From assembly GCA_025350745.1 (NCBI GenBank), contig JANXXG010000080.1, positions 1-10,894 of the forward strand: a stretch of 10,894 nt of DNA. Reading direction: 5' to 3'. The notes under the pieces are model-generated. The model made no database searches and was not told where the DNA came from. It worked only from the letters and a program-made list of their open reading frames with translations. Numbering within the stretch: position 1 is the stretch's first letter; each line of letters starts with the position of its first letter. The translations under genes were made by a program, and so were the position numbers. This DNA is from Chloroflexota bacterium. Lineage in GTDB: Bacteria > Chloroflexota > Limnocylindria > P2-11E. Below are positions 6,172 to 10,051 of this stretch, piece by piece.

Positions 6172-7392
6172 ATGGCCACCGAACGGCGCGACGCCCGGGC
6201 CTTCGCAGGGACCCGGCCGCGGGTGGGCTCGGGCTTATCGACGAACGAGGACGGCCGCCTTGCGGCCCGTGCGGCGCTCGACGCCGCCCTCGGACCGCTC
6301 GCCGGTGATCCCGCCGACCTCGTCCTGCTGTTCATCTCTCCTCAGCACGAGGATGTGCAGCGCGCGATCATCGACATCGCGAGCGAGCGCGTCGGTGGCG
6401 CGACCGTTCTCGGATGCTCGGCGGGCGGAGTCATCGCTGCACAGCACGAGATCGAGGACGCGCCCGCGGTCGCCGCGTGGGCGGCATCCCTTCCGGGTAT
6501 CGGGATCCAACCCTTCCGCTTGACCTTCCAGCGAGAGGACGATCATGCGATCGTCGAGGGGCTCGAGGACCTGCCGCACGCGGACCGTCGACCGGTGGTC
6601 GTCATGCTCGCGGATCCGTTCTCGTTTCCGGCGGACGTCCTCCTCGACCACTTCAACGAGTCAGCCCCTGGCATCCCGATCGTTGGTGGCATGGCGTCCG
6701 GCGGGCTCGAAGCCGGGAGGAACTCGCTGTACTTCAACGATGAGATCCTGCGCGACGGCGCGGTCGGCGCGATCCTCACCGGACCAGGAATGCGGACGCT
6801 CGTGTCGCAGGGCTGCCGGCCGGTGGGGAAGACGTACGCGGTCACTCGCGCAGAACAGAACGTGCTGTTCGAGCTGGGCGGCGCCTCCGCGATGTCGCGC
6901 ATCGAAGAGCTCTACGAAGGATCGAGCGAGCGCGACCAGCTGCTCATCCGCCGCGGGCTGCACGTCGGCAGCGCGATCACGGAGACGAAGCCCGAGCTCG
7001 TTCAGGGGGACTTTCTCGTGCGGAACGTCGTCGGCGTGGATCGCGAGTCTGGTGCCATCGCGATCAGCGACCGGCTCGAGATCGGCAGCACCGTGCAGTT
7101 CCAGGTGCGCGACGCCGGCTCGGCGCGCGAGGATCTGCATGCCGTTCTGGAGCGGGAGCGGTCCACCGGATCGGGCCGGGTCGCCGGCGGCCTGCTGTTC
7201 TCCTGCAATGGCCGTGGCCAGGCGCTCTTCGGCGAGCCCGATCACGACATCGGAGCCTTCCGCCGCGTGTTCGGCGACGTCCCGATCGCCGGGTTCTTCG
7301 CCGCAGGCGAGATCGGGCCCGTCGCCGGAAAGAACTTCCTCCACGGGTTCACCGCGTCGATGCTGCTGTTCCGCGAGGCGTCGGAACGATGA
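6172..7392 (+). CDS. FIST N/C-domain signal-transduction sensor protein
   Basis: This 406-residue soluble protein has the two-part FIST architecture. FIST_N, about residues 45-235, includes TVLGCSAGGVI...HEIE and PIVGGMASGG. FIST_C, about 236-395, ends in the conserved GGLLFSCNGRGQALFGEPDHD, GFFAAGEIGPV and NFLHGFTASMLLF stretches. FIST proteins are small-ligand sensors; one subgroup (NosP) is a heme protein that reports nitric oxide to a partner histidine kinase. This gene directly follows a complete membrane kinase gene, so a sensory link is plausible, but I cannot see a diagnostic heme ligand and do not assign nitric-oxide sensing. The ATG at 6172 is the first good start after the kinase, preceded by a -10-like element and a hairpin that may separate it from the kinase transcript. 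Its stop overlaps the methyltransferase start (ATGA). Confidence 0.92.
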   Translation: MATERRDARAFAGTRPRVGSGLSTNEDGRLAARAALDAALGPLAGDPADLVLLFISPQHEDVQRAIIDIASERVGGATVLGCSAGGVIAAQHEIEDAPAVAAWAASLPGIGIQPFRLTFQREDDHAIVEGLEDLPHADRRPVVVMLADPFSFPADVLLDHFNESAPGIPIVGGMASGGLEAGRNSLYFNDEILRDGAVGAILTGPGMRTLVSQGCRPVGKTYAVTRAEQNVLFELGGASAMSRIEELYEGSSERDQLLIRRGLHVGSAITETKPELVQGDFLVRNVVGVDRESGAIAISDRLEIGSTVQFQVRDAGSAREDLHAVLERERSTGSGRVAGGLLFSCNGRGQALFGEPDHDIGAFRRVFGDVPIAGFFAAGEIGPVAGKNFLHGFTASMLLFREASER

Positions 7393-8178: not shown

Positions 8179-8421
8179 TCAGATCTCCTGGTCGAGCTGG
8201 TAGCGAGTGAGCGCGAAATCGCAGAGCGAATCCCACAGCGTCGTCGATTCGTACCAGTGCTGGAGCTTCTCGGGGCTCGGGCCGCCGCGATCGAACTCCC
8301 AACCCCCACGCTGTCGCGCAATGTCCGTGTAGCAGCGGGCGAACGCCTCGTAATCCCACGCCTCGCGCTCCGGGGTCACGTGACGATCGTAGGACGTGCG
8401 CGGGGGTTCCCCGGGGCTCAT
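8179..8421 (-). CDS. 80-residue unknown protein at the end of the redox operon
   Basis: A compact acidic protein with no signal peptide or membrane segment. It is rich in aromatic residues (five Trp, six Tyr), has two Cys (30 and 67), and shows a WDYEAFARCY...WEFDRG...LQHWYE...LWDSLCDFA pattern that looks like a small helical domain. Third codon positions are strongly G/C, supporting real coding. The ATG (8421) overlaps the TGA of the upstream ccdA-like gene by four bases (ATGA), so it is translated from the same message. I do not recognise a family. Its position suggests a cytosolic partner of the redox pair, but this is inference from location alone. An internal GTG at codon 15 is a possible shorter start. 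Confidence 0.7.
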   Translation of the reverse strand: MSPGEPPRTSYDRHVTPEREAWDYEAFARCYTDIARQRGGWEFDRGGPSPEKLQHWYESTTLWDSLCDFALTRYQLDQEI

Positions 8422-9089
8422 CGGCCGAGGTAGACCTCGAGCGCCGGCAGCTTGCTCATGAGGTCCGCCGCGCCGACGACGATGAGCACCGCACCGGCGA
8501 ATCGCGAAACGGCCGCCTCGTGACGGGTGAAAAGGCGCAACAGTCTTGCCGAGCGAGCATGCGCCAGGAATGACAACAGCACCAGCGGCGTGCCGAGACC
8601 GAGACCGAACACGAGGAAGAAGACCAGCCGCTGGCTCAGCGAGTCGAGCGCGAGGGACAGCGAGAAGATGCTGACCACGAGGGCGCCCGAGCACGGAAGC
8701 GTGATCGGCCCGTACAGCAGGCCGTAGACAAAGGCGGATCGCACCGGGCCACCCTGTCCACCAGCCGCGAGCATCGGGAGTCGGGCGAACGGGTGCTTGC
8801 CCAACAGGAGCGCTGCGCCGAGCGCGATGACGACGAGATCCGCGAGCGGCGCGACGACGGTGAGGACCGCGCCGAGTGCGATCCCCAACGCGACCACCAG
8901 CGCGCCGAGGGCAAGCATCGCCGTGAGGACGCCCCCGAGGACCACGAGTCCGAGCCAGGGCGCCACGCGGGATGGCGTGGCGCTCGCCGCGGTGAGGTAC
9001 GCGAGAAATCCCGGATAGAGCGGCAAGGCACAGGGCGAGAGGGTCGCGAGCAGACCGAGGGAGAACGCCGGGATGAGCTCGCCGAACAT
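8418..9089 (-). CDS. ccdA: CcdA-type membrane thiol-disulfide electron carrier
   Basis: A 223-residue protein with about six membrane segments, matching the CcdA/DsbD-beta family in length and pattern. The two redox Cys are in place: Cys20 in the first segment (TLSPCALPLYPGF) and Cys133 in the fourth (GPITLPCSGA), both next to conserved prolines. The family accepts electrons from cytoplasmic thioredoxin and passes them across the membrane to extracytoplasmic thioredoxin-fold proteins. The gene immediately upstream encodes such a protein, ending only three bases before this ATG, so the pair should be a functional electron relay. No well-spaced ribosome-binding site exists, so translation probably depends on re-initiation after the upstream stop. 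The 3' end overlaps the start of the 80-residue protein. Confidence 0.93.
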   Translation of the reverse strand: MFGELIPAFSLGLLATLSPCALPLYPGFLAYLTAASATPSRVAPWLGLVVLGGVLTAMLALGALVVALGIALGAVLTVVAPLADLVVIALGAALLLGKHPFARLPMLAAGGQGGPVRSAFVYGLLYGPITLPCSGALVVSIFSLSLALDSLSQRLVFFLVFGLGLGTPLVLLSFLAHARSARLLRLFTRHEAAVSRFAGAVLIVVGAADLMSKLPALEVYLGR

Positions 9090-9092
9090 GTC

Positions 9093-9668
9093 CTAGGTGC
9101 GCTGTGCTGCGACGAGCGAACGCATCGTCCCGGCGTCGCGCCGGCCGAATGAACCGAGGCTCGGTCGAAGCGCCGGGCTCACGAAGAACATCGGCTCGGC
9201 CGTCGGCGTGAGGAACTGCGTGCCGTACGCACGCTGGAGGGCCTCGAGCATCTCCTTGGGCGCGACCGCGAACCGCCAGGTGAAGCCGTTCCGGTCGGCG
9301 TACGCCCGGAGCTGCGCGACATTCTCACTCGAGTCGATATCGAGGGAGATCATCTGCACGTCGCTACCGAGGCTCGCGAGCGCGTCTCTGACAACCAACT
9401 GTTGTCCAAGGCAGCCCGTTCACCAAACGGCCATCCCCTCGACGATCGTCACTTTGCCCTTGAAGTCGGAGACCGTGAATCGTTCGCCGGTGCGGGCATC
9501 GGTGAGCGGGATCGTCATGAACGCAGCCACCTGCACAGCTGCGCCCGTGACCGCGACGGACGGTGCGGGTGCCGCGGGCGTCGCCGAGCTGCAGGCGGCG
9601 ATGAGCAGCGCGGTCACCGCGACTCGACCAAGCCGATCCAGCAGACCTGGGGGATGCAGCGTCGCCAT
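9093..9668 (-). CDS. Probable selenoprotein: thioredoxin/TlpA-like lipoprotein with W-Sec-T-G-C active site
   Basis: Read through one in-frame TGA (bases 9422-9420) the gene gives 191 residues. A lipoprotein signal ends at Cys26 (LLIAAC), an Ala/Pro linker follows, then a thioredoxin fold: a RFTVSDFKGKVTIVEG strand entering the active site, MAVW-U83-T-G-C86, an L..L..DV..ISLDID strand/helix, an LRAYADRNGF helix, and LTPTAEPMFFV with the cis-Pro region. The TGA falls exactly on the first catalytic Cys of the W-C-x-x-C motif. Upstream and downstream parts are in the same frame, both with coding-like composition, and a SECIS-like hairpin follows the TGA. I therefore call selenocysteine and not a pseudogene, although a recent nonsense mutation at that codon is the alternative. 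It would be an extracytoplasmic reductase or peroxidase partner reduced by the CcdA protein encoded next. ATG 9668 is preferred over the adjacent GTG 9671. Confidence 0.82.
9386..9410 (-). promoter_or_regulatory. Bacterial SECIS-like hairpin downstream of the in-frame TGA
   Basis: On the minus strand, 13 bases after the TGA, GACAAC (9406-9401) pairs perfectly with GUUGUC (9395-9390) around the loop AGUUG. Beyond a single G-A mismatch three more pairs form (9410-9408 with 9388-9386). The loop begins 19 bases after the UGA and has G then U at its second and third positions. Bacterial SECIS elements recognised by SelB lie within the coding region right after the UGA, with a G near the start of a small apical loop; the E. 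coli fdhF element has its essential G-U in nearly the same register. Confidence 0.75.
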
Positions 9669-9672
9669 CACG

Positions 9673-9979: not shown

Positions 9980-10051
9980 AGCGGAAGACGGGATTCGAAC
10001 CCGCGACCCCGTCCTTGGCAAGGACGTGCGCTACCGCTGCGCCACTTCCGC
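9980..10051 (-). tRNA. tRNA-Gly (anticodon GCC)
   Basis: On the minus strand a 72-base cloverleaf can be folded. The acceptor GCGGAAG pairs with CUUCCGC, with discriminator U. The D arm is GCGC/GCGC with an AGCGGUA loop, and the anticodon stem CGUCC/GGACG encloses UUGCCAA, reading GCC. There is a five-base variable loop and a T arm GCGGG/CCCGU with UUCGAAU. CCA is not encoded. It is uninterrupted. The 5' end lies 25 bases after the stop of the helix-turn-helix gene and is preceded by a TATAAT box. Confidence 0.96.

Follow-up and report, generated by a model that had tools for sequence, protein, structure and literature searches.

A predicted selenocysteine-containing lipoprotein beside a CcdA-type gene in Chloroflexota

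TlpA and ResA act outside the membrane, where they are fed by CcdA. The protein family described here has in common with them a thioredoxin fold with a WCxxC motif, and our alignment profile of the family (A1) matches the solved structures of ResA (4nmu, 3.3e-10) and TlpA (1jfu, 1e-8), which supports the predicted thioredoxin-like fold. The member that we studied, encoded in a 10,894-nucleotide stretch of DNA from a Chloroflexota bacterium (the window), differs from TlpA and ResA in that selenocysteine (Sec) would replace the first cysteine. It scores far below the NCBIfam cut-offs for TlpA (NF047696, 23.1 vs 230 bits) and ResA (NF002854, 15.3 vs 170), and no NCBIfam model matches it at that model's cut-off. 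NF041054, the 'ResA-like WAxxUGC' selenoprotein model, matches weakly over the active-site region (19.8 bits, with a cut-off far above this at 300), and its motif differs, by name, from the W-U-x-x-C of the window protein.

Selenoproteins with a UxxC motif have already been catalogued as 'Redoxin family protein' under PF08534 (PMC13188914, PMC9312934), and the GOS survey includes 'Prx-like 3' (pfam08534, UxxC; PMC2398784). The catalogued redoxins share with the window protein the Pfam Redoxin domain and a Sec in the first position of UxxC. Unlike the window gene, their catalogue rows name no link to CcdA, and neither 'CcdA' nor 'Chloroflex' appears in the main text of PMC13188914 or in that of PMC9312934. 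Two catalogue representatives, HEU0032618.1 and MBA3499694.1, which we likened to the window protein by domain and motif only, may belong to the same family. Because UxxC redoxin selenoproteins are already catalogued, we regard the window protein as a CcdA-linked addition to a known kind; in the part of the open-licence literature covered, no paper was found to name such a Sec lipoprotein with a link to CcdA. The features of the locus are as follows.

9093..9668, reverse strand: predicted gene for a Sec-containing redoxin/TlpA-like lipoprotein, 191 codons if the TGA is taken as Sec; Pfam Redoxin PF08534.
9591..9593, reverse strand: codon for Cys26 of a lipobox-like LIAAC near the N-terminus, the likely lipidation site, recognised by eye.
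9420..9422, reverse strand: in-frame TGA, predicted Sec83, first residue of the W-U-T-G-C active site, from the frame and the TGA/Cys pairs in homologues.
9411..9413, reverse strand: TGC for Cys86, putative resolving cysteine of UxxC; invariant in A1.
9192..9194, reverse strand: codon for Pro159, a likely cis-proline that would face the active site; invariant in A1.
9377..9418, reverse strand: SECIS-like stem-loop, with an upper hairpin at 9406-9390 of 6 bp, loop AGTTG, the loop 19 nt after the TGA.
8418..9089, reverse strand: CcdA/DsbD-type transmembrane thiol-disulfide reductase, the next gene, 3 bases past the lipoprotein stop; DsbD_TM PF02683, 30.8 bits.

The reverse-strand frame from 9668 to 9093 holds a sole in-frame stop, the TGA, and the rest of its 191 codons are open; an alternative GTG start at 9671 is possible. 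Read through, the active-site context is MAVW-U-TGC, and the Pfam Redoxin match (PF08534, 27.8 bits vs a gathering score of 26.6, residues 49-154) spans the TGA, giving the Redoxin domain with UxxC (UTGC) that defines the Redoxin UxxC selenoprotein subfamily. A sequence-only reading of this DNA had held that one TGA (9422-9420) joins two pieces of a single thioredoxin-fold lipoprotein, with the frame kept on both sides, and that ordinary gene calling would yield two short fragments or a pseudogene. The open frame and the spanning domain match agree with the first of these points, and mechanical ORF calling indeed splits the gene into products of 83 and 101 aa. Six positions are invariant over the 19 rows of A1: M79, A80, W82, C/U83, C86 and P159. 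From the comparisons set out below, we consider it almost certain that the TGA at codon 83 specifies Sec and that the gene encodes a selenoprotein.

The product would be a thioredoxin-fold reductase of the TlpA/ResA/redoxin type, anchored in the membrane and acting on its outer side, with Sec83 as the attacking nucleophile and Cys86 as the resolving residue. Reduction of a target would leave a Sec83-Cys86 selenenylsulfide, and the adjacent CcdA-like protein would carry electrons across the membrane and reduce this bond again. Candidate targets are the disulfide of a cytochrome c or Cu centre, an oxidised thiol, or peroxide. In the window the ccdA-type gene adjoins the lipoprotein gene on the same strand, and such a gene directly follows the lipoprotein in all four loci of the family; its DsbD_TM match is over the cut-off in L042 and L094 and just under it in L093 (26.5 vs 27.1). 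A CcdA-fed role for the Sec lipoprotein is probable.

A selenoprotein with some other role, such as a redoxin-like Sec peroxidase or an SCO-like copper-binding chaperone that lies beside ccdA by chance, is possible but rather unlikely. Redoxin is the best Pfam match, and one source names a truncated relative (P0026) 'cytochrome oxidase Cu insertion factor (SCO1/SenC/PrrC family)'. Furthermore, a distant TGA-bearing relative (in genome G255, described below) has no CcdA gene directly beside it, the nearest seen being ~5 kb away at a contig end, and no CcdA motif turned up in the downstream tails (up to 900 bases, some shorter) of 13 of the 26 loci with a cysteine form. Against this stand the CcdA-type gene adjoining in the four family loci, a CcdA motif downstream in 13 of the 26 Cys loci (by motif search over up to 900 bases), and the ranking of solved structures, in which ResA scores best and TlpA third. 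The gene next to a second distant relative (L085, in G388) is CcdA-like by eye, yet without a Pfam match.

The reading of codon 83 as Sec draws on homologues at several distances. This codon is TGA in the window gene and in three other species of its family, at 44-73% identity. A search of the class (177 genomes, of which the family makes up 28) returned four strong matches with an internal TGA, all from this one family: the window's own and those of G152, G145 and G148 (L013, L014 and L015, respectively), where the TGA aligns to residue 83. The locus from Chloroflexi MAG Baikal-deep-G120 (L042) has the same sequence as L013 and was counted once. No strong lipoprotein match was obtained by the class search in the remaining 24 family genomes (best 1.2e-7, or none), and a weak match in G174 (3.4e-4, with one TGA and one TAG inside) was left uncounted. 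In contrast, codon 83 is TGC or TGT in each of the 26 further loci that were fetched from the class search (L016-L041), a count that covers the fetched loci. The sequence-only reading had proposed that the TGA replaces the first Cys of W-C-x-x-C, giving W-U-T-G-C, and had suggested the homologous codon as a check; both the frame and the cysteines of the homologues bear it out.

At a greater distance, a profile search over 400 genomes of the phylum matched 24 genomes at 1e-15 or better and added two distant cases of TGA at codon 83, L081 (G255) and L085 (G388). Cysteine occupies the position in 23 of the 27 loci from this search; apart from the two new TGA cases, the remaining two are the window's own and L086, whose motif is not comparable. 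L074 has one TAG inside its match by the phylum search, yet no stop in the aligned part. G255 and G388 both carry selA over its whole length. The Sec form in L085 is divergent, with S-L-F-U-G-T-C instead of M-A-V-W-U-x-x-C. The locus thus shows the pattern by which bacterial selenoproteins are recognised, an in-frame TGA aligned with the cysteine of homologues. Because three more family species and two distant genomes share the TGA at this codon, against cysteine in 26 of 26 loci, a chance TGA is very unlikely.

These comparisons bear directly on a pseudogene reading, in which a Cys gene is decaying and the TGA represents either a genuine stop or an error of the assembly. Such a pseudogene would need a single change, TGC to TGA, the organism is represented by a draft assembly in 426 contigs, and selD was not found in that assembly. 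Set against these points are the TGA at the same codon in four family species and two distant genomes, the frame without any other stop, the presence of tRNA-Sec, SelA and SelB, and the substitution pattern. Between the window gene and L013, dN/dS is 0.175 after the TGA (108 codons) and 0.25 before it (65 codons); the five other pairs give 0.35-0.74, values that are less reliable, with synonymous sites much changed. Judged by these rates, purifying selection acts on the part of the lipoprotein that follows the TGA. Given the low downstream dN/dS, this part is very likely translated and useful, and the frame decay or random stops that the sequence-only reading had advised looking for left no sign after the TGA. 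We therefore rejected a pseudogene, on the conserved TGA and the purifying selection downstream, as very improbable.

When the downstream half served as query in a protein search, 24 clusters were obtained, and 21 of them (P0002, P0008-P0026, P0028) are, from their protein sequences only, short ORFs starting past the TGA position; only proteins of limited length enter this search, which biases it toward short fragments. P0008 is the window's own truncated ORF; of the three remaining clusters, P0029 is a Cys form of full length, and the N-termini of P0004 and P0027 are unrelated. The gene is a well-supported selenoprotein candidate split by ordinary gene calling, in a phylum for which we found few selenoprotein papers.

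The window's assembly (2.0 Mb, 80.8% complete, 426 contigs) contains a tRNA-Sec (73.8 bits) with anticodon tca (UCA), selB (346 bits) and selA (391 bits, model positions 144-453). The last two share a contig, and selA is apparently cut by the contig end, the fetched locus stopping just past the match. SelB and tRNA-Sec would decode the UGA at codon 83 as selenocysteine. A search for selA, selB, selC and selD had been put forward with the sequence-only reading, and three parts of this set, SelA, SelB and tRNA-Sec, are present, whereas no selD match over the cut-off was found in the 80.8%-complete assembly, nor in that of G152 (66% complete). Over the family, selD exceeds the cut-off in 21 of 28 genomes, each time with one in-frame TGA, and selA matches in 27 of 28, 23 of them over the cut-off. 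G153 gave no selA match and G148 a weak one below the cut-off (3.1e-4); tRNA-Sec matches in G152 were no better than 1.4e-5. The family is a Sec-decoding lineage. Its selD seems itself to be a selenoprotein gene, with one TGA in each of the 21 genomes (e.g. L059-L062). With the formate dehydrogenase alpha model, 22 of the 28 family genomes gave matches containing one TGA; every one of these scored below the cut-off, and the window's genome yielded no such match.

Organism-wide reassignment of TGA to another amino acid, for which the read-through in the lipoprotein gene is the only point, has a negligible probability and was rejected, because clear, ordinary genes of the window (for example those of the FIST protein, the methyltransferase and the CcdA-type protein) also end in TGA, and the genome has a tRNA-Sec whose anticodon is tca.

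With Sec as the preferred reading of codon 83, a SECIS stem-loop just downstream would be expected to assist decoding, and one that could do so lies there. A published bSECIS model describes a loop of 3-9 nt, an upper stem of 4-16 bp, a G within the first two loop positions, a distance of 16-37 nt from the UGA and an MFE of -7.5 or lower (PMC13188914). The window hairpin fits this model (loop AGTTG, 6 bp, spacing 19 nt, -16.8 kcal/mol for the element), as do those of L013, L014 and L015, and the loop lies exactly 19 nt from the TGA in all four family loci, with the helix of L015 slipped by one base. Of the two distant cases, L085 fits at 25 nt, and the fit of L081 requires a bulge in the stem. 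The family-locus hairpins rank at p 0.02-0.10 among synonymous recodings. Over the 45 nt that follow the TGA, the folding energy does not fall below that of synonymous recodings (p 0.20-0.42), and pair counts over the four family sequences are not significant. Rfam reported no family at its gathering score in the SECIS region of the window; over the loci, with E up to 10, nothing exceeded the gathering score, and a chance-level sR47 overlaps the hairpin end in L015.

Among the 26 Cys loci, five likewise show a hairpin with an energy of -5.5 kcal/mol or better, 14-29 nt past the codon; in four of them it lies at 16 nt or more, and two of the five (L037 and L039) rank at p <= 0.05. The specificity of the bSECIS fit is therefore modest, and as independent proof of Sec the hairpin is weak. 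The SECIS-like hairpin that had been placed right after the TGA is thus present and within the published constraints, but it carries less weight than was implied. Because neither folding energy nor pair counts are significant, the case for Sec rests on the TGA/Cys pairing, the machinery and the selection rather than on the hairpin.

A tree of 52 rows, which leaves out L012 and L042 (identical in sequence to L064 and L013), L086 and 7 near-copies, groups the four family members together with support (97/90). Three changes of the Sec label are required on this tree, and at least two are forced by well-supported branches. The change from Cys to Sec thus seems, from the tree, to have occurred more than once; independent gain is likely but not proved, because L081 and L085 are long branches. 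We lean towards a selenoprotein family of the phylum, mostly present as split ORFs in the searched database: a CcdA-fed extracytoplasmic reductase whose attacking Cys has become Sec more than once, forming an electron relay that crosses the membrane and ends on a selenol. Related Sec and Cys forms of this CcdA-linked reductase would make up a natural series, which could show the benefit of selenium outside the membrane.

In three family loci the lipoprotein-ccdA pair has a pyridine nucleotide-disulfide oxidoreductase further downstream (L042:6456-7898, L093:3208-4617 and L094:2097-3506); the window has other genes there. The window also encodes a FIST-domain protein at 6172-7392, with an overlapping methyltransferase gene after it. 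Upstream of the lipoprotein, the window carries a tRNA gene at 9980-10051 on the reverse strand (68.9 bits).
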